DNA of 49,954 nt from a virus: positions 1-49,954 of IMG/VR virus record IMGVR_UViG_3300032214_000336. One strand, given 5' to 3'. The notes under the pieces were generated by a model. That model had not been told where the DNA came from. It did not search any database and was given only the letters and a program-made list of their open reading frames with translations. The position numbers and the translations under genes were made by a program. This document shows positions 5,936 to 42,251 of the stretch, in pieces (the stretch's first letter is position 1; every line of letters begins with the position of its first letter).

Positions 5936-6369
5936 TGGCTAAATTATACAATCAAAAATCCGTGGCAACTAATAAGGCCACAACTGCACAAACCAGTACA
6001 AGTTTCAAATATAGAGGATTTAGTTCTAATGAATTTAAGAACAATTTTAAACTCTATGATATGGAACTAGTAAAAAGAGATTTGTTAAATCATTTCTATA
6101 TCCGCAAAGGTGAAAAATTAGAAAATCCTAACTTTGGAACAATTATTTGGGACATGCTTTTTGAAAACTTTACACCTGAAGTTAAAAAATTAATCACTGA
6201 AGATGTGGAACAAATTATTAACTACGATCCCAGAATACAGGTTACCGCTCTAACTATCGACAGCACAGATATGGGTATTAGAATAGAAGCTGAAATAGTC
6301 TATAGACCTTTCAACGTAAGCGAAAGAATGACCTTTGACTTTGATAGAAAAAATAACATAGTTAACTGA
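5935..6369 (+). CDS. 25: Baseplate wedge subunit gp25
   Basis: A 144-residue protein of the GPW/gp25 family (T4 gp25 is 132 residues). The conserved pattern is clear: LVKRDLLNHFYIRKGEKLEN, PNFGTIIWDMLFENFT and the C-terminal strand region ending VSERMTFDFDRKN. gp25 is part of the inner wedge that contacts the sheath and triggers its contraction. The first 35 residues are a polar extension. The ATG shares one base with the spike stop, and GGAGAAG upstream is a good ribosome binding site. Its place between spike and gp6 is the normal T4-like order. Confidence 0.92.
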   Translation: MAKLYNQKSVATNKATTAQTSTSFKYRGFSSNEFKNNFKLYDMELVKRDLLNHFYIRKGEKLENPNFGTIIWDMLFENFTPEVKKLITEDVEQIINYDPRIQVTALTIDSTDMGIRIEAEIVYRPFNVSERMTFDFDRKNNIVN

Positions 6370-6413: not shown

Positions 6414-9400
6414 ATGACTACGACAACTAGACAAACAAATTTAATATTAAATCAAGACTGGACAAGGATATATCAAACCTTTAGAAGTGCTTATTTTAAA
6501 AGCTACGACTTTGAAAATTTGCGTAGAGTTATTATCACGTATCTACGTGAAAATTACCCAGAAGATTTTAACGATTATATTGAAAGCAGTGAGTATCTAG
6601 CATTAATTGATGCTGTAGCATTCCTTGGCCAAAGTCTAGCGTTTCGTATCGACCTTGCCAGTAGAGAAAACTTTATTGAATTAGCTTCTCGTAGAGAAAG
6701 CGTCCTTAGAATAGCTCGTATGTTGAGCTATAATGCTAAGAGGAATATTACCAGCAAGGGTCTTTTAAAGTTTGATACAATTAACACAACTGAAAACATC
6801 CTAGATGCCAACGGCAAAAATCTAGCTCGCCAGACAATTATCTGGAACGATTCTACCAATGCAAACTGGAGAGAACAGTTTCTTACTGTGCTTAATGCAG
6901 CAATGGCAGATAATACCGAATTTGGCCGCAGCGAAGGCAGTGACACTATTCAGGGTATTCCTACTGAGCAATATAGATTTAGAACAACGGGCACAGACAT
7001 TCCTATTTTTTCCTTTGAAAAAAATGTGGCAGGTAGAAGTATGCCGTTTGAAATTGTTAGTACAGCATTTAAAGGCAGCGAAGAACTTTATGAAGAACCG
7101 CCAGTTCCCGGAAATCAAATTGGTTTTGTCTATAAAAATGACGGCAAAGGATCTGCTAGTGTAAATTCTGGATTTTTTTTACTATTCAAACAAGGTAGTC
7201 TAGAGTTAGCTGATTTTAACATTGCAGTTCCGACAACTAACGAAAAAGTTTCAGTCGATGCAGACAATATCAATAATGACGATGTGTGGTTATTTGGCCT
7301 CAGTCCAAACGGGAGTCAACAAGATCAGTGGACTAAAGTTTCTGCTCTAGTAGGAAATAACATTGCTTACAACAGTGTAGAAAATAATATTAGAAACATC
7401 TATGCAGTATCAACTAAAAACAATGACAGAGTAGATTTAATATTTGCTGATGGAGTTTATGGCAATTTACCTCAAGGACCTTTTAGAGTCTATTATCGTG
7501 TAAGCAACGGATTGTCATACAGTATATTACCTAATGAACTGAGAGGAATCAGTATTGATATTCCCTACGTTAGTAAAACGGGTACTCGTCAAGTTTTATC
7601 TATTAGTATGAGTTTAAAATACACTGTTAGCAATGCAGTGCAGGCAGAATCAGTAGACAGTATTAGAACAAAAGCACCAGCGCAATATTATACACAGAAC
7701 AGAATGATTACTGCGGAAGATTACAATCTTGCGCCGTTAACCAGTAGTCAAGACATTTTAAAAGTTAAAGCAATCAATAGAACAAGTAGCGGTGTTAGTC
7801 GTAACTTTGATATCATTGATGCCAGCGGCAAGTATTCAAGTGTTAATGTGTTTGCTGACGATGGATTGATTTATAAACAAGAAAGTGAAAAAACACTGGC
7901 ATTTAAGCCGTTGACTAGAATTGATACTCTTAATTTTATTCGACAGAGTGTAGAACCTTTGTTTACAGACACAGCAGTCTACAACTTCTATATAACAAAA
8001 TTTGATAAAGTATTGTTTACTGATACCAATACTTTGTGGACACAGATTACTAATGATTTAAACGAAAGTACTGGATATTTTATCAATGCTATCGATCTTA
8101 CTTTGCAAAGAACAGGTACATACACTTCTAGTACTTTAAAATATATTCAGGCAGGATCAATGATTAAATTTGTTCCGCCTGCAGGTAAGAGTTTTAAACA
8201 AGGTGTATTAGTTGATACAGATCCGTTAGATCTAAATCAAACTGATAGACTATGGACTAAGATTATTCGTGTTGTAGGTGATGGCACAAATGCTGGCCGA
8301 GGAACACTTAGCACAGGCCGCGGCCCGATTGTATTCAATGATGTAATTCCTACGGGAGCAGTAGCTAGCAGAATTGTTCCAAAATTTGTGAACAATCTTC
8401 CCGATGCTTTAGAAACTCAGATTATAAATCTTTGTGCAGAAAGCAAAAACTTTGGTCTAAGATTTGACCTCACTACAGCTAGTTGGAAGATTATAACAGC
8501 GCCAAACATTGATTTAATAAATGCCTTTGCATTAGGCAAAGCAGGCGACATTACCAATAACAATTTAGATACCAGCTGGATTATGGCCTTTACTAAAGAA
8601 GGTGACGAATATCAAATCCGTGTAAGAACTCTTGATTATGTATTCGGCAGTATTGAACAAAATAGATTTTATTTTGATGTTAATCAAAAAATTTATGACG
8701 GAAAAACTGGATTAGTAATAAAAGATCAGATTAGAATCTTAGGTATAAACGCTATGCCTAAACAGCCATTTCCTATTAAGCAGGTACTAACTTTTGAAGT
8801 CGATGATTCTATAAAATTTGAAGACGGTTATCAAAGCTCAGACGAAATCAAAATAGCATTTAGTGATTCTGATAATGACGGAGTTATTGATAACCCAGAT
8901 GCTTTTGAACAAGTTGTTGGTTCTGATCTAGATCTAAAATACATTTTCTTTGTTAAAGATGTAGACACATTTGGAAATATTGTTTATACATATTATCCTA
9001 ATCTAGTTAAAGTTGACGGTTTTGATACTATAGAGGTAGAGCCAACCGAAGGAAGTGTTAACCTAAACGAATACCCAGACGGCCAACTAATTTATTTTTA
9101 TGACATTGCAGAAGACAGAGTAAAGCGTGTTGACTATGCTTCTAATACATTGATCTTAGAACCTTCTTATAGAGCAAATATTGGCCGATCAGATTTAAAA
9201 TTTCAGTATGTTCACAATGCTAATGTTGATCGTAGAATAGATCCTAGTGTTAGTAACATTGTTGATGTTTATCTATTAACTAGAAGTTATGATACTGAGT
9301 TTAGAAAATACCTATCCAAAGCTACAGCCATTCAACCAGAAGCCCCTAACAGTGACAGCCTTCGAATCAGTTTTGGAACTGCCCTCAGTGAGATTAAATC

Positions 9401-9827
9401 TATCAGTGATGAGATAATCTATCATCCTGTAAATTACAAGGTATTATTTGGTGCAACCGCAGATGTGTCATTGCAGGCAGTTTTTAAAGTAGTTAAGAAC
9501 CCAAATAAAACAATTAACGACAATGATCTTAAAGTTAGAATTGTTTCAGCAATCAACGATTTCTTTGATGTGGCTAACTGGGACTTTGGTGATAGATTCT
9601 ATCTGGGCGAATTAATCACATATATTACTAATGCAGTCACTCCAGATTTAAGTAACTTAGTAATTGTTCCAAGACAAAGCACACAAACATTTGGCAGCTT
9701 ATTTGAAATTCAAAGTGGCAATGATGAAATTTTTGTCAGCGGTGCCACTGTTGATGATATTGTGATAGTAACTGCTATCACGGCAAGTGAAATAAAAGTT
9801 GATGCTTCTGGTGTCATCTCATCGTAA
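6414..9827 (+). CDS. 6: Baseplate wedge subunit gp6
   Basis: A 1137-residue baseplate wedge protein; T4 gp6, which forms the dimeric inner ring of the baseplate, is 660 residues, so this is an enlarged version. The N-terminal 110 residues carry the gp6 signature (NLRRVIITYLRENYPEDFND, EYLALIDAVAFLGQSLAFRI, LASRRESVLRIARMLSYNAK). The region around 390-470 (YYTQNRMITAEDYN) is baseplate-J-like. The C-terminal domain (about 1040-1115) has YLGELITYITNAVTPDLSN and NLVIVPRQSTQTFGSLFEI, also typical. The extra length lies in the middle, with beta-rich segments. It follows gp25 as in T4, and the ATG has only a weak AGGG ribosome site. Confidence 0.9.
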   Translation: MTTTTRQTNLILNQDWTRIYQTFRSAYFKSYDFENLRRVIITYLRENYPEDFNDYIESSEYLALIDAVAFLGQSLAFRIDLASRENFIELASRRESVLRIARMLSYNAKRNITSKGLLKFDTINTTENILDANGKNLARQTIIWNDSTNANWREQFLTVLNAAMADNTEFGRSEGSDTIQGIPTEQYRFRTTGTDIPIFSFEKNVAGRSMPFEIVSTAFKGSEELYEEPPVPGNQIGFVYKNDGKGSASVNSGFFLLFKQGSLELADFNIAVPTTNEKVSVDADNINNDDVWLFGLSPNGSQQDQWTKVSALVGNNIAYNSVENNIRNIYAVSTKNNDRVDLIFADGVYGNLPQGPFRVYYRVSNGLSYSILPNELRGISIDIPYVSKTGTRQVLSISMSLKYTVSNAVQAESVDSIRTKAPAQYYTQNRMITAEDYNLAPLTSSQDILKVKAINRTSSGVSRNFDIIDASGKYSSVNVFADDGLIYKQESEKTLAFKPLTRIDTLNFIRQSVEPLFTDTAVYNFYITKFDKVLFTDTNTLWTQITNDLNESTGYFINAIDLTLQRTGTYTSSTLKYIQAGSMIKFVPPAGKSFKQGVLVDTDPLDLNQTDRLWTKIIRVVGDGTNAGRGTLSTGRGPIVFNDVIPTGAVASRIVPKFVNNLPDALETQIINLCAESKNFGLRFDLTTASWKIITAPNIDLINAFALGKAGDITNNNLDTSWIMAFTKEGDEYQIRVRTLDYVFGSIEQNRFYFDVNQKIYDGKTGLVIKDQIRILGINAMPKQPFPIKQVLTFEVDDSIKFEDGYQSSDEIKIAFSDSDNDGVIDNPDAFEQVVGSDLDLKYIFFVKDVDTFGNIVYTYYPNLVKVDGFDTIEVEPTEGSVNLNEYPDGQLIYFYDIAEDRVKRVDYASNTLILEPSYRANIGRSDLKFQYVHNANVDRRIDPSVSNIVDVYLLTRSYDTEFRKYLSKATAIQPEAPNSDSLRISFGTALSEIKSISDEIIYHPVNYKVLFGATADVSLQAVFKVVKNPNKTINDNDLKVRIVSAINDFFDVANWDFGDRFYLGELITYITNAVTPDLSNLVIVPRQSTQTFGSLFEIQSGNDEIFVSGATVDDIVIVTAITASEIKVDASGVISS

Positions 9828-9843
9828 AGTAGGTTAAAATATA

Positions 9844-12800
9844 ATGGCAGACGAAATTTATCCAAACAGCGGTATACCAATTCGTAGATCTGTAGATCTA
9901 CTACCCCAAGTTTTTAAAACTGAAACTAATAGTAAGTTTATGGCTGCTGTGGTTGATCCTTTGATACAACCTGGGGCACTAGATAAAACTGTGGGCTATG
10001 TTGGAAAAAGATTTGGTAAAACTTACAAAGGCACTGACATATATCTTGACAGTGACGATTCTTTAAGAAGTAGATATCAGTTAGAACCGGGCGTTGTTAT
10101 AAGAAACAATCGAGATGTTGTTGAAAATTTTTACGACTACGTTGACTTTAAAAATCAATTACAGTTCTTTAATAATTTTACTGAAAGAGATGATCTAGTA
10201 ACCAGTCAAGATCATTACAGCTGGGATCCTCCAATCACTTGGGATAAGTTTGTAAACTTTAGAGAATACTATTGGGTTCCTAACGGACCTCCTAGTGTTA
10301 AAGTATTAGGTCAAGGCGATGCAATTACTAGCACCTATAGAGTTAGACAAGGTACAACATCCACTTGGATTTTTCATCCCGACGGTCTTACAAATAATCC
10401 AACTATTACTCTTTATAGAGGCCAAACATACAAATTTAATGTAAACAGTCCTCGTGAAGGGTTTTATATTAGAACAGCATTCGACACAGGTAGCTTAACT
10501 TACAATCCTATTCTTCCTTATATTCCTAACCAGTTAGCGGTCTATGATGGCAAGCTATGGAGAGCATTAACTTTTGTTACTGCTAGTATTGATGGAACTA
10601 TCGTCGAAGGTCCTGAATGGGAACTTGTTGATGAGAATATTCGCACCAGCAAATTTGACTATGAAAGCGGAGTTACAAATAATGGTGCTACTAACGGCAC
10701 AGTTACATTTGAAGTCCCATTAGATGCTCCTGATATCCTCTATTATCAAAGTGCAATTAATCCTGACAGATTTGGACGTTTCTTAATTCAAGACATTGAA
10801 GAAAATACCAGCATTAATATTGATAAAGAAATCATAGGAAAAATAAACTATACCAGCAGCAATGGCGTTGAGTTTACTAACGGTCTTGTTGTGAGATTTG
10901 GCGGAAAAGTTACTCCTGCAAAATATGCTAAAAATAATTGGTTAGTAGAAAAAGTTGGTCGCGAAATTACTTTGATTAAATTTAGCGATCTCGAAGTACC
11001 TATTATTACAAGTCAGGTGCCGGAAGTGATTTTTGACAATGCTGGATTTGATACTGATCCTTTTGATGATGCAACTTCATATCCGGGAGAAAAAGATTAT
11101 ATTACAATCTGTAGAGCCAGCATTGACAACAACCCTTGGTCAAGATATAACCGATGGTTTCATAAATCAGTTTTAGAAAAAGCTAATGCATTAAATGGTA
11201 CTGACTTTGAAGCAGGAGATAGTTTTAGAGCCAAACGACCTATTGTTGAATTTAGACCTAATCTTCAACTGTACAATCACGGTAGTATAGCTAAACAGTC
11301 GGTTGATTTTATTGATACGTTTACTACTGATGTGTTTTCTACAATTGAAGGAAGTACTGGTTATAGCATCGACGGCGAATTTTTATATCAAGGCGCCCGA
11401 GTATTATTCACAGCCGATACTGACACACTGGCCAACAACAAAATTTATCAAGTCAACATTATTACACACAATAATGTTAGACAAATTACTTTAAAAGCAA
11501 CCGCCGATTCAGAACCAATATTAGGCGAAGCAGTCCTAGTAAGAGCTGGCAATGTTAACAAAGGATTAATGTATCATTTTAACGGTACAAGCTGGGTAGC
11601 AAGCCAGAAGAAAACTAAAGCCAACCAGCCACCGCTGTTTGATGTGTTTGATGATAACGGAGTAAGTTTTGGAGATAACGAAACTTATCCTGCAACCTCT
11701 TTTGTAGGAACTCCTCTTCTAGGCTATAAAGTTGGTAACAGTATCACTGATACAGAATTGGGATTTAGTTTAGATTATCTAAACATAGACAATGTTGGCG
11801 ATATCCTGTTTACTTTTAACTTAGACAGTGACAGCTTTTCTTATTCTTTAAATCAAGAAACAGTTAGTGTAAATCTAAACACTGGCTATTATAGATTTAA
11901 TCCTTTAGACGAATTTGCCAACGGATGGTTGGCAACTGATCCAGTTTATCTTCAACCTATCTTAGATAGTGTAGTAGTTACAGAAGTAACTTCAACTGTT
12001 CAGCTGAGTACAGTAAATTGGGACGTATTTGATGCTTTAGAATCTACCCTAATTGTTTATCTAAATGGAATTAGATACAATTTGTATTCTAGAACCAAAG
12101 GATCTTTTGTCTTTGACAGAGCTCTATCAGTCGGAGATGTTGTTTCTATTAAGATATTTGCCAACATAGATCCAGATCGAGGTTATTATCAAATTCCTTT
12201 AGGATTGGAAAAGAACCCACTAAATCAAACAGTACAGACATTCACACTAGGACAGGCTATAGATCATTTGACTTCTGCTCTAGAAGTAGATTCTGAGTTT
12301 GCAGGTGTGTATCCTGGCAATAGTAATCTTAGAGACATAGATGGCTATCAATCTCGAGCAATGAGATTTTTAAAGCATTCTGGAATCGCTCCATTGGCTA
12401 TTACTTTTCTTTGTGACAAAAATACAAATATCATAAAATCTATTCAATATTCTTTAAAAAATTACAGCAATTTTAAAAATGATTTTTACAAAAGAATATC
12501 TGAAACAAATTTTAATGGCGATATCTCTGACTTTGTCGATCAAATAATATCGGCTATTGGTTCAGCAAAAGATTCTTCAAATCCGTTCGCCGACACTGAT
12601 ATGATTGGTAGCGGTGCCCATACAGATATCAATTATGAAGTTGAAGACGAAGGTATTAAGGTATTTGCTTTAACTGAAAAATTTGACCTAAACACTCTAA
12701 GTAGAAAAGCAGTGTATGTTTATCGAAACGGTGCTCAATTATTAAACGGCAAAGACTATGTGTTCGATAGCACATTTGGTTTTATAAGATTATTGTTGGA

Positions 12801-15800
12801 TCTCGTAGAAGGCGATAACATTGTTATTAGAGAATATACTTCAACAGCATTTAATTATATTCCTTGCACCCCTACTAAATTAGGTCTTTATAAAAAGTAT
12901 ACTCCAAGAAAGTTTTTAGACGACACTTTTGTCACCCCTAGAAACGTAATTCAAGGGCACGATGGCAGTATTATCACGGCTTATGACGATTACAGAGATG
13001 ATGCAATTCTTGAATTAGAATTGAGAATTTACAATAACATTAAAGTTCAATACGACGAATCAGTTTTTGACATTGATAGTATACTTGGCGGATATTACGG
13101 CAATTCTTTGTACGGTAAAGAAGAATTAGATTTAATAGTAGGTCAAGATTTTCTACGTTGGGTAGCAAACACTGACATTGATTATACTACTAATACTGCA
13201 TATTTTGATACTGAAAATAGTTTTACCTATACCTATTCTAATATGACTGACCCTACTAGAACTAAGAGTCTACCTGGATATTGGAGAGGAGTATATCAAT
13301 GGTTTTATGATACCACTCGACCACACACTTGTCCTTGGGAGATATTAGGGTTCAGTGAACAGCCCGATTGGTGGGAATCAGAATACGGTGCTGCTCCTTA
13401 TACCAGCGGCAATTTATTGTTATGGGAAGATATTCGAGATGGTATTATTCGCCAAGGTCCAAGAGCCGGCACCTATCCTCGTTATGCTAGACCGTCTATT
13501 ATAAATCATATCCCCACAGATAACGACGGTAAACTATTAAGCCCATTAAACTCTGGCGTAGCAAATGATTATGTTTTGGTCAATAATCAAGGAGATTACA
13601 GATTAGGAGATCTTAGTCCTTCGGAGTATGCCTGGAGATCTACATCCGAGTGGCCGTTTGCAGTGATTTCTGCATTGTGTCTAATGAAACCGTTTGAATT
13701 TATTACAGATAGTTTTGACAGATCTCGTACAACTGTTAACAAATTAAATCAAACAGTTCATACCGGTACAGGAGTTTTCACTACTCTAGCAGATCTTGAA
13801 TTGCCGTCCACAGGAAATCAACAGGCTTCGGGACTAAGCAACTTTATTTCAAGTTACATCAAAAGCAAAAATCTATCTGATACTACCCTACTAGATAAGA
13901 TTTCAAATATCGATGTACAAATTAGCACAAGACTTTCTGGTTTCGTTGATCAATCTGAACAGAAATATCTACTGGATAGCAAAACTCCTAGCTCTTCGTC
14001 GAGCAGTGTTTATGTTCCAAACGAAAATTATGACATTATTTTTAATATCAGCGTGCCTATTAAAGCAATTGCTTATAGCGGAGTTTTGATTGAAAAACTA
14101 GCAGAAGGTTGGAAGATCAAAGGCTATGATACTCAACAACCTTACTTTAATTATTTTAAACCAATTGCCAGTAGCGTAGATCCGTTAATGTCAGTTGGCG
14201 GTGTTAGCGCAGACTTTTTTAATTGGGCTCCTGATAAACTCTATGGTAACGGCGACATTGTAAGAAATCAAGACGTATTCTATCGCGCATTAAAGAGTCA
14301 TACCAGCGGCGAAATCTTTGATAAAAATCTATGGAAAGTTCTTCCTAAGCTGCCAGTAGTCGGAGGCGTAGATGCATTTTTTAGAAGAACATTTAATCAA
14401 ATAAAAACTGAAAAATTGTACTACGGCACAGTATTAACATCAGTTCAGGCTGTAGTAGATTTTTTACTAGGCTATCAATCTTGGCTAACTGTCCAGGGAT
14501 TTAGTTTTGATAGATACGATTCTGAAACTCAAACAGCCTATAACTGGCAGACCAGTTCTAAAGAATTTTTATTCTGGACTAAACATAATTGGGCTGTAGG
14601 CTCATTGTTAACTTTAAGCCCTAGTTCTGCACAAGTTGATGCTGCAATCCCTGCAGGTGTTGCTGATAATTTGTTTGATAGTTTTTATGATTATCAAATT
14701 TATAAAGCCGACGGCACTCCTTTGCTGCCAGTATTTTTAAATGTTAACAGAGACTTTAAAAAAGTAAAAGTTAGTACAGTTAATACCAACGAAGGAATAT
14801 ATTTCTTAAAGATTTATTTTGTATTAAAAGAACACGTTACTTTATTTGACGATCGCACAGTTTTCAACGATGTTATCTATGATAAAACTACAGGATATCG
14901 CCAAGAGCGCATTAAGAGTCGAGGCTTCCGTACCGTAGACTGGGACGGCGATTATACAAGCCCAGGTTTCTTGTTTGATAATGTAAACATTCAACAATGG
15001 CAACCTTATACAGACTATCGTTTAGGAGACATTGCTTCCTATAAGTCTTTTAACTGGGTCAGCAAAGAAAATCAAATTGGTTCAGACACCTTTAATAATA
15101 ACGGCTGGGAAAAGTTAGACTCTACCCCAACTAAAGGATTAGTTGCAAACTTTGATTATAGAATTAATCAGTTTGAAGACTACTACGAAACTGATGCAGA
15201 CGGATTGGGAAGTAGTCAACGAGATCTAAGTCGACACGTTATCGGTTATCAAACTAGAGAATATCTACAAAATATGGCTGAAGATAGCGTTAGCCAATTT
15301 AGAATTTATCAAGGGTTTATTCGTGAAAAAGGCACATCAAATGCTGTTACTAAAGTATTTGATAAACTCAGTAGAACAGAATCTGGAAGTATAGAACTCA
15401 ATGAAGAGTGGGCATTTAGAGTAGGACGTTTCGGGGGAACTGATCAGTTCAAAGAAACTGAGTTTAGAATATTTAAAAATAATTTTAAACTAAATCCACA
15501 GCCTATTTTATTAGCTCCCGGCGAAGAGTCTACCGATGTTTTAGATCTTTATATGAGAATTCCTGAAAGGAATTTTACAGTAGCTCCAATTCCGTTTACA
15601 GCAAACATTAACCCTACAAAAGATTACTTTCAATCGTCTAGAACAGCAGGATATGTCAGCGCCTTGGATGTTGATTTTGCAGTTAGAGTTTACGACGACA
15701 TTTTAAATCTTGATTTAGAATCGTTTGAAGAAAACGCACACGTTTGGATCAGTTTTTATAAAAATAGCTGGACTGTGTTGAGATATAATGTTTCTAATCT

Positions 15801-18800
15801 ATTATTGGTCACTGATCTAAATGTTACTAAAACTAGAGTAGAATTAGTTTTAAATAGAACTCACGGATTATCCGTTGGAGATATTTTTGGTATCCGAGGG
15901 ATAGAAAATCTTGTAGGTTTCTACAAAATAACAGAAGTACCTAACAGTAGGTCTATTGTAATTCAAATAACAAAAGAAGCTAAAGAACCAAAATGGGATT
16001 CTAGTAGCAATGTTAATTTAGAAGTGTTCTCTGAATCAAGATTTGCAAATTATCAAGAAGTTAATTTAAAACAGGCAGCTAACTCTACCAGCGGCGCAAA
16101 GTTCTGGATAGATAGTAATCAAGATCAGAAATGGGAAGTGGTGGAAAAGCAACAGCAGTTTACATCGAAGGCTATTAATGAATACGGAACAACCAGTCCC
16201 TTAGGTAACGGATCTGCAGTTCTATATATTGACATCTTAACACAAATTATTTCGTCAATGCCCGAATCTAATCTAGTAGTTTCTTACGCAGAAAGAACTG
16301 ACGGATTAAGACCGTTTCAAATTTTGAATAGGCCCGAGGTAGTTAGTTCAGGCGTTGCAGGCAAGTTTGGCGAAACACTGGCGGCAAGTCCAGACGGTCA
16401 GTGGTTGGCTGTAGGGTCTCCTAGAGCTTCTGGTATTAGAAGTGACTATAGAAAAGATTTTGATGCTACTCGAACATATTTACAAGGCGAGATCGTAGTC
16501 TTTAGAGGTAAACTATGGAGAGCCAAGGTAGATGTGCTGCCAGCAGATGGTAGCACAATTACTATTGATTCAGAAGATTGGGAACCAGCATCGATTATTA
16601 CAGCTAATAGTAGCGGAGTTGGTTTAGGATATGCTGAGCAGGGCGTAGTATCTCTATATCAATGGAGCGGGCAGACTTGGGTAGAAAAATTTAGTTTTGT
16701 AAGTCCTAGGCAGGCAGCTTCTGAAAAATTTGGAAGTAAGATATCCATCGGGGTGTCAGATGGAAATTATTATATGGCTATTTCTGCCCCTGGGTCTTTA
16801 TTAGAAACTGGTAGAGTTTATCTTTACAAATATGCCCCTTTAACTTCTACCAATGGCGAGACTATAACCTATACAGTAACAGTTGGTCCAGCTCAAGGTC
16901 TTGATTCTGGTTTCAAATATTATATTAATGAAGAATATAGAAAAAATATAACTTTGTTAGTAGGGAACACTTATATATTTGATCAAACAGATCTTAGTAA
17001 TGTATATTTTCCAAACCCAGAAAACGGAGCGGTGATAAACAAACATACATTGGGATTTAGTGCCGACAATATTAGCGGAACGCTTGCTGGCGGCACGCTT
17101 TATACTCCGGGGGTTATCTATTACTTAGATAATAGTCCGGTAACTAGAACCCAATACATTTCTAAATTTGCATTAGCAACCACTAGAAAAATTCAAATTA
17201 CTGTAACAGAATCAACAGCAGGGGTGTTGTATTACTTCTCTGCCGAAACTGCTAATATGGGTAATTCTATGATTAGAAAATATCCATCTATTGCCAGAGA
17301 ATGGCAATTTATTGAAAATCAATATTATAAGGGAGTCTACGATCAAACTAGAACAGGCTTTTACGAAGAAGGTGCAATAGTTTGGCACGACAATAGTTAT
17401 TGGAGATCTCTCGAAGATCAAATCGGAGACGGCAGCACAATTACTATTGAATCTGGGCAATGGGAACGTCTAGATCCTATTCCAACACAAAGCTCTTTAC
17501 CTAATAATGTTGCGTTATATGACGAGAATAATACAGCCTCGTTATTAGATGATTCAACGATCCCGTCAGGGCTTTCAGCTTCAACTCAAAATGCCGAAAT
17601 GGTTAAGATTGGCGATAAGTTTGGAACAACTATGACTATGAGTAGAGATGGATCTGTTTTAGTTGTTGGTGCTCCTGAAAGTGACGGGCAATATTTTGTA
17701 AATTATCGAGGTATATGGAATGGTTATCAAGAATATGTAGAGGGCGACGTTGTAAAATATACCAATGGAAATTTTTATCAATTAGGACATTTTGGTGATA
17801 GTGCAGGACTTTCGAAAGCCTACGGCGGCACCGAAGCCCCGCCAGCATCACCTTGGTCTTTAGTTGCTGTTGAAACTACTACTAAATCAGGCAAGATTTT
17901 TATCTACCAGAAAAACACATATGATTTTTATGATTTAGTACAAACAGTTAATGCAGGCAGTCTAGATTTATACAGTGACATTACTGAAGAAGAATTAATT
18001 GATACCAGTGACTTGTTTGGCTATGCTCTTGACATCGACTATTCAGGCACTACACTAGCAGTATCTAGTCCACGAGCTGATATCAATCTACAAAATCAAG
18101 GAGCAGTTTATGTTTTTAAATTAGAAATAGATTCTGCAACACCTACATTTAGATTGAAACAAAAACTTCAAAGCTACGAAATTTACAATAATGAATTATT
18201 TGGCTCAACAGTTTCTATCAGCGAACGTACAGAAAGAATTGTAGTAGGAGCTAAAAATACTCCTTATAAATTGCCAGTAATATTTGACAGCAATACTACT
18301 AGATTCGATGGCAACAGAACAAGATTTAGCAAAGACCAAGGTTATCCTGGTCAAGTTTATGTATTTGAAAGAAAAGACGACACATATTTGTTAGCTGAAA
18401 AGTTAGAAGCTAACTTAGTTGAAAATGAAGGTTTTGGAAGTTCTATTGATTCAACAGCATCAGTAATTGTTGTAGGTTCTCCAACTTATAAAGTTGGTGG
18501 AAATGTTGTTGGTACAACTAGAATATTTAGAAAAGATACTAGCAAAAACAGTCTTGAAGTTTTAGCAGTTCAGGAGCCGTTAGTTAATATAAATCTCTTA
18601 AAGAGTATTGCAGTCTATGACGATGAAAAATTTGTAAAACTTGCAGACCTTGATATTATTGATCCTAATAAATTTAAAATTTTAGGTCGTGCAGAACAAG
18701 AAATTAAATTTAAAACTCCTTACGATCCTGCAACTTATACTCAAGGTATAGACGACGTTACCGTAGACACTGATAGCGCCTGGTTTGAAAAGAACGTAGG

Positions 18801-21800
18801 TGTATTGTGGTGGAACACAAGCACTGCTAAATGGGTTCATTACGAACAAGGAGATCTTGCCTATCGAGCAGGTAATTGGAATCAACAGGCAGTGGGATCG
18901 AGCATTGATGTTTATGAGTGGGTTGAAAGCTCAATCACTCCCACCGATTGGCTGAAAATCTCAGACACTGTTGAGGGATTGGCAGCAAATATCTCTGGAC
19001 AGCCGTTGTATGGTAATACAGTTTATTCTAAGAAAATATTCTTTAATCCTACAACTGGATTACAAAACGGAACCAAATATTATTTCTGGGTAAAAAATAA
19101 AACAATTATTCCTAAGAATGTTATTGGTAGAAATATTTCTTCATCTGATGTAGCTACGTTAATTGCTAATCCTGCAAGTTCAGGCCTCCCTATACTAGCA
19201 ATACTAGCACCAGACAAGTATCTCGGTTATAATTTAAATTCTATTATTACCGGAGACTCTGCTTTAATAAACATTGAGTATTATAATTCGGAAAGAATGC
19301 CAAATTCTGTTCATACTGAATATCAGTTGTTAACCGAGGGTGTAGAAGACAGCTTGCCTAGTGAAGCATTAGAACAAAAATGGATTGACAGCTTGGTAGG
19401 ATTTAATCAAGCAGGCAATCCAGTTCCTGATCCTACATTGTTGCCTAAACAACGTTACGGATTAGCCTTTAGACCTATTCAAACAATGTTTGTTAATCGA
19501 GCTACGGCTCTTAAAATAGTAGTTGACAATATAGACGACATTTTAGAAACAAAACCGTTCAGTGATCTAGTTGATTTTAGAAATTTAAACAAAGTTGATC
19601 CAATACCCGACGAAACTTTAAATTTATATGATTTGAGTGTGGATACTTATGCTGAATTGGCAGAAGTTGGCATTGTTAGGATTCGTCCGGCAGTGTTTAG
19701 TGCAAATATTGTTGATGGTGAAATTGATACAATTGATATTATTGATGCAGGATTTGGTTATAGAACTGCTCCTCCTGTGGTGATCACCGGTACAGGTACT
19801 GGCGCTAAAGCTTCGATAACATTAGATACTCAAGGTCGAGTTTCGTCTATTACAATTTTACAAAGAGGAAAAAATTACACTTCTGCTGAAATTTCAGTTA
19901 GGAGTTTTTCAGTACTGGTAAAAACTGATAATACATTTAATGGTTCTTGGAGCATATATTTCTGGGATTCGGCTAGAGAAGGCTTCTTTAAGAGCAATGT
20001 ACAGGCTTACGATACAACTAAGTTTTGGTCTTATGCTGATTGGTATGCTCTAGGATACAGCAACACAACCAGAATATCAAAAGAGATATTAAATCTTTAC
20101 CAAATACCAACTATTGGTTTAGAGCTAGGAGATATTGTTAAGATCAAAGAATATGCAAACGGTGGCTGGGCACTTTTAGAAAGAGTTGAATCTGGACTAG
20201 GTGATATTTTACAAGATTACGTTTTAGTAGGGCGTCAGGCCGGTACAATACAACTAAGTCAAAATTTATATGATTTGCGAGTATATGACTATCAAACAAC
20301 CTATGATGAGATAACTTACGACAATCAACCAACTCAGGAATTAAGATTTATCCTTGCCGCAGTTAAAGAAGACATATTCATTAATGATCTAGCAGTTGAA
20401 TGGAATAAATTATTCTTTACAAGTATGAGATATATTTTCTCAGAGCAGCTCTATGTTGACTGGGCATTTAAGACAAGTTTCTTAAATGCAATCCATAACG
20501 TTGGTGATCTTGTTGAAAAAACAAATTACAAAAATGATAATTTAGAAAGTTTCCAAAAATATCTAGAAGAAGTTAAACCTTTTAGAACTACTATACGTGA
20601 ATACACAAGCAGATATACTGATATTGACAGACACGGTGCAGCTATTACTGACTTTGATGTTCCTCCGTTGTACGATCAGCGAGAAGGGCAAATATTGCCT
20701 GTTTTAGAAAATTCTTCAGTGATTGATACCTATCCATACCGTTGGTGGAAAGATAATAAAGGATATTCGATAGTAGCTATAGAAATATCGGATGCAGGAG
20801 ATAATTATGTTCAACCACCGAGGGTTTTTATTCAAGGCGACGGAACTGGAGCAACTGCTCAGGCTTATATTAGTAACGGTTCTGTCATTGGTGTTAAGGT
20901 ATTAACACCAGGTAGCGGATATACAACTGCTACCGCAACTTTAGTCGGCGGTAACGGTTCTTCTACTGCAATTGGTAAAGTGTCTGCTATTTTAGGCGAC
21001 TCTAAGGTAAGAACTTTTAATCTAGCTCTAAAATTTGACAGAACATCTAAAACTGGTGAAACGTCTGAATATATCTACGAACAAACATTTATTGCAGACG
21101 GTTTCACGGCTATCTTTAATTTAAATTATCCGCCAACTCGAGATAAAACTAAAATCTCTGTTGAAATTAACAGTGAAATTATTTTAGACAGTGATTACTC
21201 TATAACATTCTATAAGTCGAACACTGATTCGTATGAATTATTAAGAGGTAAACTGAAACTAAACAACCTTCCTGCTGCCGGTGATACTATTATCATCGTC
21301 TACGAAAAGAGCGATGAAGTGTTGGATGCTGTTGATAGAATTAACAAATACTACGCACCAACAAGTGGAATGATTGGTAAAGAAATCAATCAGTTAATGA
21401 CAGGAATTGATTTTGGCGGTGTACAAATCCAAGGTACAACTTTTGATGTATCCGGAGGCTGGGATGCCCTTCCTTGGTTTACTGATACTTGGGATTCAGT
21501 AGAACCTAACAGCGATTATTATTACATTGCCGACGGTAGTACTACTTTTGTTACTTTGCCAGCAGCACCAGCTGAAGGCCAACAAATATCTGTTTATCTA
21601 AAAAGATTTGGTGCAGGATCGCCTCGCACTATTGATACTTTAGACTCGGCTGGTGCACCTGTTGTAGTATACGATCAAGGAACAGACGAGCAACCAACTA
21701 TTAGAATTGATGACCCTAATTTTATAGTCTACGAAGATGGTTCTACAAATAATGATTTAGTAATTAACCCTAATGCGGTTATGACAACATTTGTGGGAGA

Positions 21801-24114
21801 TGGTATTACAAAGAACGTTGAAGTTGGGCAATTCGTTGCAATAAATGCTGGCGACACTTTAATTTTCCGTCCTCTTGAAAGTGATGGCACTGTTAATATC
21901 ACAGACGTTAACATTCTTGATACAAAAATTAGCGGAGGAAGTTTAAGTGTACTTGACGGAGCGTATGCAACTGCTTCGGGTACCCTAGCTGAAGAAATTG
22001 TTGTTGACGGCGGCAAATATATTGGTCCAGATCAAGTTCCTGCACCCGAAGAAAACATTCCAGGGCAGGTATTGGAAAGTGTATCTATTAAAGTATTTCA
22101 TACTGTTCAAACAGGAGCTACTCCTTTACAAGCTAAAGTCAGCTACGGCAATGGTGTAAAAACTAGATATAATATTGGATTAACAATTTTAGAGTCACAG
22201 TCTGTAGTTGTTTACATTGATAAAATTAAATGCGAGACTACAAATGCAGACAGCACGTTGATATATGAAATTGATTATGAAACAAATGAAGTAGTCTTCT
22301 TTAATCCCCCCGAAACTGGATCTGTAGTAGAAATTATTTCTATAGGTATCGGAGGAGCTGAAATACTTGATTACCAAGAATTTATTGCTGATGGCGAAAC
22401 TACATTATTTTTAACAACAGCTAATTATGCCGACACTACTTCAGTGGTTGTGACCGTTGATGGGGTATCTGTTGATTCTATACCTCTCAATAGTAGTGAC
22501 TTTTTAGATGTTAAAAATAAAACTCTAATACAGTTTGCCAACGTTCCCGCAAACAAACAAGTAATAAAAATAGTCTGTATGGGAGCAGTTTCTGATGTTG
22601 ATTCTTCCGGTAATTCAGTAGTTAGAGTAAATCAGCAGGTAATTACATTTGATGGTAGCACATTAAGTTATGATTTGGATAGATTTGTAAATCTTGAAAG
22701 ATCAAGTGCTGCAGGATCAACTTTAGTTGAAATAAACGGTAAACAACTAAAAGGTGTTGATACTTCTTTTGTAGTCTACGATGGTACAAATAACATAATT
22801 GAAGTAGGTAAAGATCCTGTAGAAGCACCTAACACTGCCACGCAAGAAAATATTCAAGTTTATATTAATAATGAACTAAAAAGATATATCTTAGATTATA
22901 ATTATGATGGAAACAACAACTTAGTTACAGTTGATACAGAAGTACTTTCAGTAGGCGATGAGATCAAAGTTGTTGTTGATGTTAGAAGTCAATATAGATT
23001 TGAAGGCAACAATATTGTCTTTGCAGGTACATCTTTTGTAGAAAACGATAGTACAACAACCTTGCAAGAAGGAGATCAGATTACAGTAACTTGGTTTAGC
23101 GAATACCCAAGTATGAACATAGTTACAGATCAGTTCACTGGAGGAAAAGTGCAGTATCAATTATCTTTTGAACCTATTAGTGCCAGCTACATATGGGTTT
23201 ACAGAAATGGTTTACGCCTAACACAGGATATTGATTACGATGTGTCTGTTCCTAGAAATGTAGTTTATATGAAATCTCCTGGAGTAAATACCGATCAAAT
23301 CAAGATCGTACAGTATGGAAATTATCTAAGAAGACAACCAATCGGCTATGAGGTTTTCAAAGATATGTTAAACATTCATCACTATAAGAGGTTTAGTCTA
23401 AACAAGAATGTTGTACTAACACAGAATTTAAATTATTATGACACTGTGATAAATGTTTCCGATACGTCGAATTTATTTGAACCAATCAAATTAAAAAATA
23501 TTCCGGGTACAATTTGGATTAACGGTGAACGTATTGATTACTTTGAAAAAACAGCCACAACATTAGGTCAGCTAAGAAGAGGCTGTTTTGGTACAGCAAT
23601 TAAAGAGGTACATACTCTAGGTAGTAATATTGTTGACATTAGTAAGCCTGAAACTATTCCTTACAACGAAGAACAGGAAAGATACGATTTTGTTAGTGAT
23701 GGTAGTAGTTTGTTGATAGGTCCTTTACCGTTTGTTCCTGCACAGGCTACTAGATCAGGTTGGTACAGATCTACTATTCCTACAGGTTTTGAACCCTGCG
23801 ATCAAATTGAAGTATTCTCAGCAGGAACTAGATTGAGAAAGGATCCAATTACTATCTATGATAATTCGTTAAATCTTACTAGCCCTGAGGCAGATGTTAC
23901 TGTTGAAGCTGAATTTAGCGTTGACGGATTCAATAATTATATCAGATTAACTAATTCAGTTCCGGCAGGCACACGCATTACAGTTATTAGAAGAACAGGA
24001 AAAACCTGGTATGATAGAGGAGAAAATTCAGCTTCTAGCGGAGTTACTTTAGTTAAAAATCAAAACTCGATAGTTAAGTTTTTAAAACAAAGAGCCACTG
24101 AGCTACCTGAATAA
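9844..24114 (+). CDS. Giant mosaic virion protein in the outer-wedge gene position
   Basis: One uninterrupted frame of 4756 residues begins MADEIYPNSGIPIRRSVDLL. It follows gp6, where T4 has gene 7 and the outer wedge genes, so a baseplate-periphery role is inferred. Recognisable parts: a cupredoxin-like domain split by an inserted module (about 180-325); W/Y-rich carbohydrate-binding (CBM5/12-like) modules near 229-262, 1457-1500, 1716-1758, 2202-2249, 2494-2543 and 2619-2675; a conserved segment with GYWRGVYQWFYDTTRPHTCP and QPDWWESEYGAAPYTSGN (about 1140-1200); six FG-GAP-like propeller repeats spanning about 2170-2890; a second cupredoxin-like domain (about 2335-2475); two glycine-hairpin repeats (about 3296-3356, 3643-3704); a string of beta-sandwich-like repeats from about 3745 to 4490; and a compact C-terminal domain (RIDYFEKTATTLGQLRRGCF). 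No signal peptide is seen. Domain names come from motif resemblance only; identity with gp7 is not established. Confidence 0.8.
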   Translation: MADEIYPNSGIPIRRSVDLLPQVFKTETNSKFMAAVVDPLIQPGALDKTVGYVGKRFGKTYKGTDIYLDSDDSLRSRYQLEPGVVIRNNRDVVENFYDYVDFKNQLQFFNNFTERDDLVTSQDHYSWDPPITWDKFVNFREYYWVPNGPPSVKVLGQGDAITSTYRVRQGTTSTWIFHPDGLTNNPTITLYRGQTYKFNVNSPREGFYIRTAFDTGSLTYNPILPYIPNQLAVYDGKLWRALTFVTASIDGTIVEGPEWELVDENIRTSKFDYESGVTNNGATNGTVTFEVPLDAPDILYYQSAINPDRFGRFLIQDIEENTSINIDKEIIGKINYTSSNGVEFTNGLVVRFGGKVTPAKYAKNNWLVEKVGREITLIKFSDLEVPIITSQVPEVIFDNAGFDTDPFDDATSYPGEKDYITICRASIDNNPWSRYNRWFHKSVLEKANALNGTDFEAGDSFRAKRPIVEFRPNLQLYNHGSIAKQSVDFIDTFTTDVFSTIEGSTGYSIDGEFLYQGARVLFTADTDTLANNKIYQVNIITHNNVRQITLKATADSEPILGEAVLVRAGNVNKGLMYHFNGTSWVASQKKTKANQPPLFDVFDDNGVSFGDNETYPATSFVGTPLLGYKVGNSITDTELGFSLDYLNIDNVGDILFTFNLDSDSFSYSLNQETVSVNLNTGYYRFNPLDEFANGWLATDPVYLQPILDSVVVTEVTSTVQLSTVNWDVFDALESTLIVYLNGIRYNLYSRTKGSFVFDRALSVGDVVSIKIFANIDPDRGYYQIPLGLEKNPLNQTVQTFTLGQAIDHLTSALEVDSEFAGVYPGNSNLRDIDGYQSRAMRFLKHSGIAPLAITFLCDKNTNIIKSIQYSLKNYSNFKNDFYKRISETNFNGDISDFVDQIISAIGSAKDSSNPFADTDMIGSGAHTDINYEVEDEGIKVFALTEKFDLNTLSRKAVYVYRNGAQLLNGKDYVFDSTFGFIRLLLDLVEGDNIVIREYTSTAFNYIPCTPTKLGLYKKYTPRKFLDDTFVTPRNVIQGHDGSIITAYDDYRDDAILELELRIYNNIKVQYDESVFDIDSILGGYYGNSLYGKEELDLIVGQDFLRWVANTDIDYTTNTAYFDTENSFTYTYSNMTDPTRTKSLPGYWRGVYQWFYDTTRPHTCPWEILGFSEQPDWWESEYGAAPYTSGNLLLWEDIRDGIIRQGPRAGTYPRYARPSIINHIPTDNDGKLLSPLNSGVANDYVLVNNQGDYRLGDLSPSEYAWRSTSEWPFAVISALCLMKPFEFITDSFDRSRTTVNKLNQTVHTGTGVFTTLADLELPSTGNQQASGLSNFISSYIKSKNLSDTTLLDKISNIDVQISTRLSGFVDQSEQKYLLDSKTPSSSSSSVYVPNENYDIIFNISVPIKAIAYSGVLIEKLAEGWKIKGYDTQQPYFNYFKPIASSVDPLMSVGGVSADFFNWAPDKLYGNGDIVRNQDVFYRALKSHTSGEIFDKNLWKVLPKLPVVGGVDAFFRRTFNQIKTEKLYYGTVLTSVQAVVDFLLGYQSWLTVQGFSFDRYDSETQTAYNWQTSSKEFLFWTKHNWAVGSLLTLSPSSAQVDAAIPAGVADNLFDSFYDYQIYKADGTPLLPVFLNVNRDFKKVKVSTVNTNEGIYFLKIYFVLKEHVTLFDDRTVFNDVIYDKTTGYRQERIKSRGFRTVDWDGDYTSPGFLFDNVNIQQWQPYTDYRLGDIASYKSFNWVSKENQIGSDTFNNNGWEKLDSTPTKGLVANFDYRINQFEDYYETDADGLGSSQRDLSRHVIGYQTREYLQNMAEDSVSQFRIYQGFIREKGTSNAVTKVFDKLSRTESGSIELNEEWAFRVGRFGGTDQFKETEFRIFKNNFKLNPQPILLAPGEESTDVLDLYMRIPERNFTVAPIPFTANINPTKDYFQSSRTAGYVSALDVDFAVRVYDDILNLDLESFEENAHVWISFYKNSWTVLRYNVSNLLLVTDLNVTKTRVELVLNRTHGLSVGDIFGIRGIENLVGFYKITEVPNSRSIVIQITKEAKEPKWDSSSNVNLEVFSESRFANYQEVNLKQAANSTSGAKFWIDSNQDQKWEVVEKQQQFTSKAINEYGTTSPLGNGSAVLYIDILTQIISSMPESNLVVSYAERTDGLRPFQILNRPEVVSSGVAGKFGETLAASPDGQWLAVGSPRASGIRSDYRKDFDATRTYLQGEIVVFRGKLWRAKVDVLPADGSTITIDSEDWEPASIITANSSGVGLGYAEQGVVSLYQWSGQTWVEKFSFVSPRQAASEKFGSKISIGVSDGNYYMAISAPGSLLETGRVYLYKYAPLTSTNGETITYTVTVGPAQGLDSGFKYYINEEYRKNITLLVGNTYIFDQTDLSNVYFPNPENGAVINKHTLGFSADNISGTLAGGTLYTPGVIYYLDNSPVTRTQYISKFALATTRKIQITVTESTAGVLYYFSAETANMGNSMIRKYPSIAREWQFIENQYYKGVYDQTRTGFYEEGAIVWHDNSYWRSLEDQIGDGSTITIESGQWERLDPIPTQSSLPNNVALYDENNTASLLDDSTIPSGLSASTQNAEMVKIGDKFGTTMTMSRDGSVLVVGAPESDGQYFVNYRGIWNGYQEYVEGDVVKYTNGNFYQLGHFGDSAGLSKAYGGTEAPPASPWSLVAVETTTKSGKIFIYQKNTYDFYDLVQTVNAGSLDLYSDITEEELIDTSDLFGYALDIDYSGTTLAVSSPRADINLQNQGAVYVFKLEIDSATPTFRLKQKLQSYEIYNNELFGSTVSISERTERIVVGAKNTPYKLPVIFDSNTTRFDGNRTRFSKDQGYPGQVYVFERKDDTYLLAEKLEANLVENEGFGSSIDSTASVIVVGSPTYKVGGNVVGTTRIFRKDTSKNSLEVLAVQEPLVNINLLKSIAVYDDEKFVKLADLDIIDPNKFKILGRAEQEIKFKTPYDPATYTQGIDDVTVDTDSAWFEKNVGVLWWNTSTAKWVHYEQGDLAYRAGNWNQQAVGSSIDVYEWVESSITPTDWLKISDTVEGLAANISGQPLYGNTVYSKKIFFNPTTGLQNGTKYYFWVKNKTIIPKNVIGRNISSSDVATLIANPASSGLPILAILAPDKYLGYNLNSIITGDSALINIEYYNSERMPNSVHTEYQLLTEGVEDSLPSEALEQKWIDSLVGFNQAGNPVPDPTLLPKQRYGLAFRPIQTMFVNRATALKIVVDNIDDILETKPFSDLVDFRNLNKVDPIPDETLNLYDLSVDTYAELAEVGIVRIRPAVFSANIVDGEIDTIDIIDAGFGYRTAPPVVITGTGTGAKASITLDTQGRVSSITILQRGKNYTSAEISVRSFSVLVKTDNTFNGSWSIYFWDSAREGFFKSNVQAYDTTKFWSYADWYALGYSNTTRISKEILNLYQIPTIGLELGDIVKIKEYANGGWALLERVESGLGDILQDYVLVGRQAGTIQLSQNLYDLRVYDYQTTYDEITYDNQPTQELRFILAAVKEDIFINDLAVEWNKLFFTSMRYIFSEQLYVDWAFKTSFLNAIHNVGDLVEKTNYKNDNLESFQKYLEEVKPFRTTIREYTSRYTDIDRHGAAITDFDVPPLYDQREGQILPVLENSSVIDTYPYRWWKDNKGYSIVAIEISDAGDNYVQPPRVFIQGDGTGATAQAYISNGSVIGVKVLTPGSGYTTATATLVGGNGSSTAIGKVSAILGDSKVRTFNLALKFDRTSKTGETSEYIYEQTFIADGFTAIFNLNYPPTRDKTKISVEINSEIILDSDYSITFYKSNTDSYELLRGKLKLNNLPAAGDTIIIVYEKSDEVLDAVDRINKYYAPTSGMIGKEINQLMTGIDFGGVQIQGTTFDVSGGWDALPWFTDTWDSVEPNSDYYYIADGSTTFVTLPAAPAEGQQISVYLKRFGAGSPRTIDTLDSAGAPVVVYDQGTDEQPTIRIDDPNFIVYEDGSTNNDLVINPNAVMTTFVGDGITKNVEVGQFVAINAGDTLIFRPLESDGTVNITDVNILDTKISGGSLSVLDGAYATASGTLAEEIVVDGGKYIGPDQVPAPEENIPGQVLESVSIKVFHTVQTGATPLQAKVSYGNGVKTRYNIGLTILESQSVVVYIDKIKCETTNADSTLIYEIDYETNEVVFFNPPETGSVVEIISIGIGGAEILDYQEFIADGETTLFLTTANYADTTSVVVTVDGVSVDSIPLNSSDFLDVKNKTLIQFANVPANKQVIKIVCMGAVSDVDSSGNSVVRVNQQVITFDGSTLSYDLDRFVNLERSSAAGSTLVEINGKQLKGVDTSFVVYDGTNNIIEVGKDPVEAPNTATQENIQVYINNELKRYILDYNYDGNNNLVTVDTEVLSVGDEIKVVVDVRSQYRFEGNNIVFAGTSFVENDSTTTLQEGDQITVTWFSEYPSMNIVTDQFTGGKVQYQLSFEPISASYIWVYRNGLRLTQDIDYDVSVPRNVVYMKSPGVNTDQIKIVQYGNYLRRQPIGYEVFKDMLNIHHYKRFSLNKNVVLTQNLNYYDTVINVSDTSNLFEPIKLKNIPGTIWINGERIDYFEKTATTLGQLRRGCFGTAIKEVHTLGSNIVDISKPETIPYNEEQERYDFVSDGSSLLIGPLPFVPAQATRSGWYRSTIPTGFEPCDQIEVFSAGTRLRKDPITIYDNSLNLTSPEADVTVEAEFSVDGFNNYIRLTNSVPAGTRITVIRRTGKTWYDRGENSASSGVTLVKNQNSIVKFLKQRATELPE

Positions 24115-24121: not shown

Positions 24122-24787
24122 ATGGAACAAGAAAATACAAGCGATACAACCATGAAAAACGAAAAATCACAGGAAAATCAACAGCCTAATGAGACCGCCG
24201 GATGGCATTTTGAGGGCCACATTAAGATTTTTGATCCGGAAACTGGCGAGGTTTTCCAGGACAAACGCAATGCCATTCACTACGAAAATATGAGTGTAGC
24301 AATGGTAAATGCACTGTCTAATCAGGGTCAGGGTTGGATTTATCAAATGGTTTTTGGCAGCGGCGGCACCACAGTAGATCCTACAGGACTTATTACCTAT
24401 CTAACGCCTAACACTATTGGTGTAAACACAGGGTTGTACAATCAAACTTATGCAAAAGTTGTTGATCAAAACGCTACTGAAAACGTAGACCCAACTCGCA
24501 ATAAGATGGAAATTCGTCACGTTAGCGGTGCAACATATAGTGATATCGTTATTAGTTGCTTGTTAGATTACGGTGAACCGGTGGGACAACAGGCCTTTGA
24601 TAATAGTCAAGATATGAACAGCAATTTTGTTTTTGATGAATTAGGATTGAAGAGTTATAATCCCAACGGTGGAGGTAAGTTACTTACACACGTGGTTTTT
24701 CACCCAGTACAAAAATCATTAAATCGTCTCTTACAGGTTGATTATACAATCCGTGTACAGAGCTTAACCGGCTTTACGGAGGTATAA
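24122..24787 (+). CDS. Probable virion structural protein, family not recognised
   Basis: A 221-residue protein between the giant wedge protein and the first tail fibre. The first 25 residues are polar (Glu, Asn, Gln, Lys, Thr) and look disordered. A compact domain follows with HIKIFDPETGEVFQDKRNAI, ending in beta-rich sequence (KLLTHVVFHPVQKSLNR, DYTIRVQSLTGFTEV). I recall similar proteins in marine T4-like phages annotated only as structural; placement suggests a link between wedge and fibres. The start is uncertain: ATG 24122 has no ribosome site, and an in-frame ATG at 24152 would remove 10 residues. It is followed 4 bases later by a fibre gene whose Shine-Dalgarno (CGGAGGT) lies inside this 3' end. 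Confidence 0.68.
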   Translation: MEQENTSDTTMKNEKSQENQQPNETAGWHFEGHIKIFDPETGEVFQDKRNAIHYENMSVAMVNALSNQGQGWIYQMVFGSGGTTVDPTGLITYLTPNTIGVNTGLYNQTYAKVVDQNATENVDPTRNKMEIRHVSGATYSDIVISCLLDYGEPVGQQAFDNSQDMNSNFVFDELGLKSYNPNGGGKLLTHVVFHPVQKSLNRLLQVDYTIRVQSLTGFTEV

Positions 24788-38961: not shown

Positions 38962-39534
38962 ATGGCAAAAAGAATACAATTTAGGCGTGGAACAACAACT
39001 GAACACGCAACGTTCGTGGGTGCTCCTGGTGAACTTACAATTGACACCACAAAGAAAACAGTAGTTGTTCATGACGGTGTTACCCCAGGGGGTTTTCCAG
39101 CGACACGATTAGATGCAGCAGGGGGAATATCAACTTTTAACGGACCTATTGTTGTTACAGATGCTACTCCTAGTACATCAACAACTACCGGTGCTATACG
39201 AATTACTGGTGGATTAGGAGTAGGAGCAAGAATTACCTGCTCACAACTAGTTGAAACATCTACTATTACAGTTAAAGAAAATGTAAATCCTATTTCAAAT
39301 GCTCTTGAAGATATATTAAAGTTAACTGGTGTAACTTATGATAGAAAAGATAAATCTTCAATTAATGAGGCCGGCTTAATTGCAGAAGATGTAGATAAAG
39401 TATTACCTAACTTGGTTGTAAAAGATGATAAAGGTAATCCTAATGGAATATATTATACAAAATTAGTAGCTTATCTAGTAGAAGCAATTAAAGATCAACA
39501 AGAACAAATTGAAGAGCTAAAGAAAAAGGTATAA
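38962..39534 (+). CDS. Small Mtd-like N-terminus / S74 intramolecular chaperone protein
   Basis: A 190-residue protein joining two fibre modules. Residues 1-50 (RIQFRRGTTTEHATFVGAPG, VHDGVTPGGFPATR) match the N-terminal domain of major-tropism-determinant-type proteins. Residues about 98-190 form an S74 endosialidase-type chaperone (NALEDILKLTGVTYDRKD, AGLIAEDVDKVLPNLVVKD, YYTKLVAYLVEAIKDQQEQI) ending in a coiled coil. The self-cleavage dyad appears intact: Ser100 and Lys105, spaced five residues as in known S74 domains. Almost no receptor-binding body remains between them. It is sandwiched between two fibre paralogues, so it may trimerise as a mini-fibre or supply its chaperone in trans; both are inference. 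Confidence 0.82.
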   Translation: MAKRIQFRRGTTTEHATFVGAPGELTIDTTKKTVVVHDGVTPGGFPATRLDAAGGISTFNGPIVVTDATPSTSTTTGAIRITGGLGVGARITCSQLVETSTITVKENVNPISNALEDILKLTGVTYDRKDKSSINEAGLIAEDVDKVLPNLVVKDDKGNPNGIYYTKLVAYLVEAIKDQQEQIEELKKKV

Positions 39535-42197: not shown

Positions 42198-42251
42198 TTG
42201 GGCTCAATTCATAGCTGGTAAATAAACAGCTATGTTTATTCGGAGACCCAA
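42198..42251 (+). promoter_or_regulatory. Start-sequestering RNA stem-loop between fibre and sugar modules
   Basis: Almost the whole intergenic gap folds on itself. Paired segments are 42198-42202 with 42247-42251, 42203-42205 with 42243-42245, 42206-42208 with 42238-42240, and 42210-42217 with 42227-42234 (CATAGCTG/CAGCTATG), giving about 19 pairs with small bulges and a 9-base loop. The Shine-Dalgarno GGAG (42242-42245) and the A of the ATG (42251) lie in the stem. A competing hairpin, AATAAAC/GTTTATT (42221-42227 with 42234-42240), would break the inner stem. No run of T follows, so it is not a typical terminator. Translational control or transcript processing is inferred. Confidence 0.6.

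Follow-up and report, generated by a model that had tools for sequence, protein, structure and literature searches.

The giant baseplate protein of a myovirus was found to carry what is almost certainly a seven-bladed FG-GAP_2 propeller with further domains nested in its loops, an architecture that the predicted structure assigns to residues about 2108-2892 of 4756. We consider it probable, with some reservation, that this propeller is a unit insert in the giant protein and acts as a peripheral platform for host contact. Host contact as the function of the propeller itself, argued by analogy, comes slightly short of an even chance. The window, that is, the whole stretch of DNA analysed, is a 49,954-base virus fragment that contains a myovirus baseplate cluster. 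The genes that define the locus are the following:

5935..6369, plus strand: gp25-like baseplate wedge protein (Pfam PF04965)
6414..9827, plus strand: gp6-like baseplate wedge protein, upstream of the giant ORF (phrog_10646, 1e-287)
9844..24114, plus strand: giant structural protein of 4756 aa, encoded between gp6 and the 221-aa ORF (phrog_10938, 'virion structural protein')
24122..24787, plus strand: conserved 221-aa ORF, downstream (phrog_11259)

The gene order is gp53-like, a 799-aa structural protein, a gp5-like hub, gp25, gp6, the 4756-aa ORF and the 221-aa ORF, 3' of which collar, fibre and chaperone genes are located; several fibre-like genes directly follow the giant-ORF locus. The framework of the giant protein matched the phrog_10938 profile with an E value of 0 and 1060.8 bits. 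Compared with the T4 order, its position directly after gp6 is the slot of gp7. Sequence kinship with T4 gp7 was not detectable, as the hhalign probability was below 1% for all six profiles tried, and T4 gp7 was in none of the match lists from profile searches of the PDB. Therefore, 'gp7 slot' refers here to position alone, and the placement rests on gene order.

With the framework as query, 108 relatives were found and 80 were kept. The relatives in IMG/VR lie on contigs of up to 327 kb, and the nearest cultured kin, Phosso, Atu_ph07 and PA5oct, have genomes of 287-490 kb; therefore, the source virus is probably a jumbo phage. The 221-aa ORF is retained in these three phages and in most relatives whose locus extends that far. 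The framework profile found no relatives when searched against genomes of bacteria and archaea. Single-sequence searches yielded no relatives of the propeller stretch alone and no match in the PDB. The PA5oct homologue of the giant protein, gp355, is a virion protein according to mass spectrometry. The same method detected CBB_236, which adjoins a gp6 homologue, in the virion (PMC5259590), as well as the 382 kDa protein gp245 of phAPEC6, encoded next to gp244, 'baseplate wedge' (PMC7247149). Based on gene order and tblastn hits in that phage group, CBB_236 and phAPEC6 gp245 are read as the same gene as the giant ORF.

Further genes of the window were noted. A 1213-aa fibre-like protein (33221-36862) contains Gly-rich and laminin-G/concanavalin-like domains as well as C-terminal PA14/GLEYA domains; the PA14/GLEYA type is typical of yeast adhesins. 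A 190-aa protein (38962-39534) combines the N-terminal domain of a major tropism determinant with an S74 endosialidase chaperone domain. A Radical SAM protein (46792-48165) is encoded in a tight, partly overlapping run of ORFs (42251-49952) by the tail genes, and its neighbours in this run have no assigned family.

The initial annotation had placed six FG repeats at residues of about 2172, 2296, 2595, 2725, 2786 and 2864. All six were recovered within three residues, the FG motifs being located at 2175, 2296, 2593, 2725, 2786 and 2864. The rest of the 4756 residues held no further match to the pattern, and shuffled proteins yielded 0.023 matches on average and two at most. The match to the Pfam family FG-GAP_2 (PF14312) scored 58.9 bits (E value 5.5e-16), well above the cut-off of 23, and the family was also matched by 42 of the 43 relatives. 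The integrin-type family FG-GAP (PF01839) was not matched in the window and was matched by one of the 43 relatives (E 0.0016), and no calcium-binding loop of the form D-x-[DN]-x-[DN] occurs within residues 2100-2920. A blade profile built from the alignment retrieved six repeats in each relative that is complete in this region, except for the relative L085, and none in L001-L005.

Structure prediction of residues about 2100-2950, which had been suggested as a check on the repeats, yielded a propeller that matched integrin alpha chains over its whole length. The AlphaFold model covered residues 2085-2970 and used a 43-sequence alignment (42 relatives). Its pLDDT was 73 overall and above 90 in most blade strands, whereas the insert domains had low to middling values, much below those of the blade strands; the pTM was 0.71. 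The model contains 28 strands, which could be sorted into seven sets of four, as follows:

16165..18519, plus strand: whole propeller module, residues about 2108-2892, between 'WEVVEK' and 'QEPLVNI' of the framework
16219..16329, plus strand: blade 1, residues 2126-2162, without FG motif (four strands in the model)
16360..16698, plus strand: blade 2 with insert, residues 2173-2285 (FG at 2175, blade HMM 1.8e-9, strands)
16723..17310, plus strand: blade 3 with insert, residues 2294-2489 (blade HMM 1.8e-13, strands)
17614..17952, plus strand: blade 4 with insert, residues 2591-2703 (blade HMM 5.2e-12)
18010..18168, plus strand: blade 5, residues 2723-2775 (blade HMM 5.5e-22; best Pfam FG-GAP_2 stretch)
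18193..18402, plus strand: blade 6, residues 2784-2853 (blade HMM 5.9e-11)
18427..18570, plus strand: blade 7, residues 2862-2909 (blade HMM 2.7e-8)

Thus, the six FG repeats of the proposed propeller stood, but the number of blades is seven rather than six, since blade 1 lacks an FG motif. Aligned with VIA-align, integrin alpha-L (5e6u) matched the model with a Z score of 30.4; the alignment extends from model residue 20 to 817 (protein residues 2104-2901) and superposes 360 residues with an rmsd of 3.0 A. WD40 propellers came next among the matches listed (Z 28-29), and integrin alpha-M was also recovered by a sequence profile. The ring appears to be closed in the model, because the match to closed propellers is full-length and because the two ends meet in L085.

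The uneven spacing of the repeats and the mean pLDDT of 73 could also be taken to mean that the repeats fall in unrelated domains and that there is no closed propeller. Yet three relatives (L078, L081 and L083) contain the bare blades, nearly without inserts, in about 587 aa, and the integrin match extends over the whole length. Together with the junction in L085, these findings largely refute the reading without a propeller, which we regard as the least credible of all those considered. A further reading would make the propeller an enzyme domain, for instance a lyase or hydrolase acting on glycans, with a surface polymer as its substrate. Propellers are indeed frequent among phage depolymerases. 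Endosialidases are also noted in a description of phage propellers (PMC4901313). However, the closest folds listed were propellers of the integrin alpha and WD40 types rather than those of sialidases or lyases, and FG-GAP_2 and CBM_5_12 were the only Pfam families matched by more than one relative. Thus, an enzymatic role is very improbable.

The uneven gaps had been attributed to modules inserted between strands, and the comparison of 43 relatives bears this out. The A-B strand blocks of 20, 35 and 23 aa are almost invariant, whereas the B-C loop of blade 2 varies from 48 to 132 aa, the stretch from strand C of blade 3 to blade 4 from 13 to 230 aa, and the B-C loop of blade 4 from 1 to 72 aa. 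The modules in these loops, and similar modules elsewhere in the protein, are as follows:

16429..16635, plus strand: residues 2196-2264, a CBM5/12-like module between strands B and C of blade 2 (Pfam CBM_5_12, 24.4 bits)
16840..17295, plus strand: residues 2333-2484, a cupredoxin-like module between strands C and D of blade 3 (predicted fold, PDB matches)
17326..17487, plus strand: residues 2495-2548, a CBM5/12-like module in the D3-A4 loop (aligned relatives; profile columns also match Cis13 of 7b5h)
17692..17886, plus strand: residues 2617-2681, a CBM5/12-like module between strands B and C of blade 4 (sequence pattern, alignment)
10507..10641, plus strand: weak CBM5/12-like module outside the propeller, residues 222-266 (profile 6.8e-4; 0.33 to a chitinase domain)
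14221..14343, plus strand: CBM5/12-like module outside the propeller, residues 1460-1500 (Pfam CBM_5_12)
14995..15123, plus strand: weak CBM5/12-like module outside the propeller, residues 1718-1760 (pattern, profile 0.13)

CBM-like modules were thus present where the initial annotation had seen them, at about residues 2202, 2494 and 2619. The best of these propeller modules reached 24.4 bits against a Pfam cut-off of 26.2, but CBM_5_12 was matched somewhere in 33 of the 43 relatives, with E values down to 2.8e-12. For the whole protein, the CBM_5_12 score was 37.2 bits, above the cut-off, with the best stretch at 1460-1488; the module around it was aligned to the chitinase A1 domain ChBD (1ed7). 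Five of the 43 relatives lack the B-C insert of blade 4, and the weak module at 1718-1760 is missing in Phosso, Atu_ph07 and PA5oct.

The suggested cupredoxin-like insertion was recovered as well, as the inserted stretch (2340-2484) yielded a predicted cupredoxin fold. Modelled with 39 relatives, it reached a pLDDT of 88.9, and the leading PDB matches were mostly laccases, rusticyanin and nitrite reductase; the best of them, with a Z score of 8.8 and 3.2 A over 108 residues, is middling. At the blade 3 site this domain occurs in the close clade only. Instead of the type-1 copper ligands H, C, H and M, the window protein has H, S, T and M, i.e. two of the four are lost, and the full set (H, C-x2/3-H-x2-M) is present in half of the aligned phage sequences (20 of 40). 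Cupredoxin-like domains were also seen to be widespread in phage structural proteins (L124-L181). None of the papers searched brought cupredoxin, phage and baseplate together. Copper binding would be an unexpected property of a phage tail domain.

Judged from the sequences, the propeller as a whole is an insert in the framework, and its site is empty in four lineages. In L085, 'WKVIEK' is joined to 'QEEPTVDI' with about a dozen residues between them, and Phosso, Atu_ph07 and PA5oct (L001, L002 and L003) are likewise short at the propeller site. Loss within the clade rests on one contig, that of L085. Independent support for the empty site comes from the three cultured outgroups. A protein and DNA pattern search for a second phage contig with such a propeller-less junction found the exact junction only in L085's own contig. 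On the framework tree, the propeller state changed twice, insert 3 nine times and insert 4 twice. The relatives with bare blades (L078, L081 and L083) are the deepest that carry the propeller, although long branches weaken the certainty of the deep order. The simplest reading is one gain of the propeller, later addition of the inserts and one loss in L085.

Two observations concern the cultured kin. Atu_ph07, whose giant protein has no propeller, has a 393-aa 'hemagglutinin' as a separate protein (BFVD A0A2L0UZX4), the predicted structure of which matches the window propeller model with a TM score of 0.65 by target length. Upstream of the propeller site, between residues of about 1700 and 3180, the giant ORFs of Phosso and Atu_ph07 contain long repeats of the G-x-G-x-G-A type, which were not seen at that place in the window protein.

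Mid-distance relatives are 20-41% identical to the window protein at residues 2001-2900, compared with mostly 45-73% in the framework, which makes the region one of the least conserved of the protein; this lower conservation is as expected of an outer part. The variability was not specific to one face, as the top-face loops were no more variable than the bottom-face loops, and a trace of variation driven by receptors was thus not found. Inserts, where present, were about as conserved as the blades.

The B-C and D-A loops of propellers share one face, which is the ligand face in integrins. On the preferred reading, residues 2108-2892 form one closed seven-bladed propeller of the integrin-alpha fold, inserted as a unit into the framework in the gp7 slot. 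Propeller topology would place the three CBM5/12-like modules, which interrupt two B-C loops (blades 2 and 4) and the D3-A4 loop, on one face, and the cupredoxin-like domain, between strands C and D of blade 3, on the other. The propeller would be the rigid hub of a platform present in multiple copies at the periphery of the baseplate, on its rim, and its inserts may make the first contacts with glycans or proteins of the host surface; we infer the copy number, the rim position, the faces and the host contact. Host contact is favoured because propellers are known from phage host-recognition devices, namely the phi11 receptor-binding protein, PRD1 P2 and phiKZ gp131C (PMC4901313).

The modules may also bind protein instead of sugar, and the propeller may then be a structural docking hub for tail fibres or wedge proteins. 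The match of a CBM5/12-like stretch to residues 34-87 of Cis13, the three further modules in the framework of the same protein, the conservation of the inserts at the level of the blades, and the fibre-like genes directly after the locus all agree with this. However, four lineages with otherwise the same baseplate gene order have the empty site, and insert 3 was gained or lost often, a pattern that is hard to reconcile with an indispensable docking site. We regard a docking hub as the leading alternative to host contact, although a rather unlikely one. The same observations bear on the multivalent lectin platform that had been proposed. The propeller with domains emerging from its loops was upheld, but the lectin platform was not, since modules of the CBM5/12 type can be purely structural in contractile baseplates (Cis13/All3316), three are located outside the propeller, and no excess variation of the top face was found. 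A lectin role of these modules remains putative.

Peripheral host contact, the preferred reading, can be compared with several known systems. The integrin alpha propellers (5e6u, 7usm) share the seven four-stranded blades, the FG...GxP repeat and a loop-inserted domain; however, the window protein is 16-18% identical to them and lacks DxDxD calcium loops, and its inserted domains are CBM-like and cupredoxin-like instead of an I domain. The phiKZ protein gp131C (4GBF) has a seven-bladed propeller at the periphery of a jumbo-phage baseplate and is a proposed receptor binder (PMC4901313), but this propeller is the C-terminal domain of a different protein, its description contains no nested inserts, and the likeness is by description only; gp131C did not appear among the 50 fold matches listed for the model, which does not speak against a kinship. 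The phi11 receptor-binding protein, another propeller in a host-recognition device (PMC4901313), is trimeric, has five blades and belongs to a siphophage. The giant proteins of Phosso, Atu_ph07 and PA5oct (3857-4555 aa, phrog_10938 kin) have the framework and gene order in common with the window protein but no propeller at the site. Cyanophage P-HM2 gp7 (4454 aa) is also giant, occupies the slot after gp6 and shares the cupredoxin-like domain, which is 32.5% identical, but the blade profile found no FG-GAP repeats in it. Cis13/All3316 (7b5h), from the contractile injection system of Anabaena, likewise has a CBM5/12-like stretch in a baseplate-attached protein, but it is small and trimeric, resembles a fibre and has a membrane helix. 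None of the papers searched combined FG-GAP, beta-propeller and baseplate. Baseplate propellers as such are already known, and the variant added here is one of the FG-GAP type inside a giant wedge-slot protein, with nested inserts that turn over.

These results map concrete domains onto part of a giant baseplate protein for which cultured jumbo phages carry only the annotations 'virion structural protein' or 'hypothetical'. They reveal two levels of insertion, the propeller in the framework and small domains in the propeller, with different turnover rates. The natural loss in L085 and the relatives with bare propellers make the role of the propeller testable. Tentatively, the propeller might have been acquired once as a unit by a clade of jumbo-type phages and act as an integrin-like recognition head; on one face, in the manner of the integrin I domain, it would carry exchangeable glycan-binding inserts, whose gain and loss would shift the host range.
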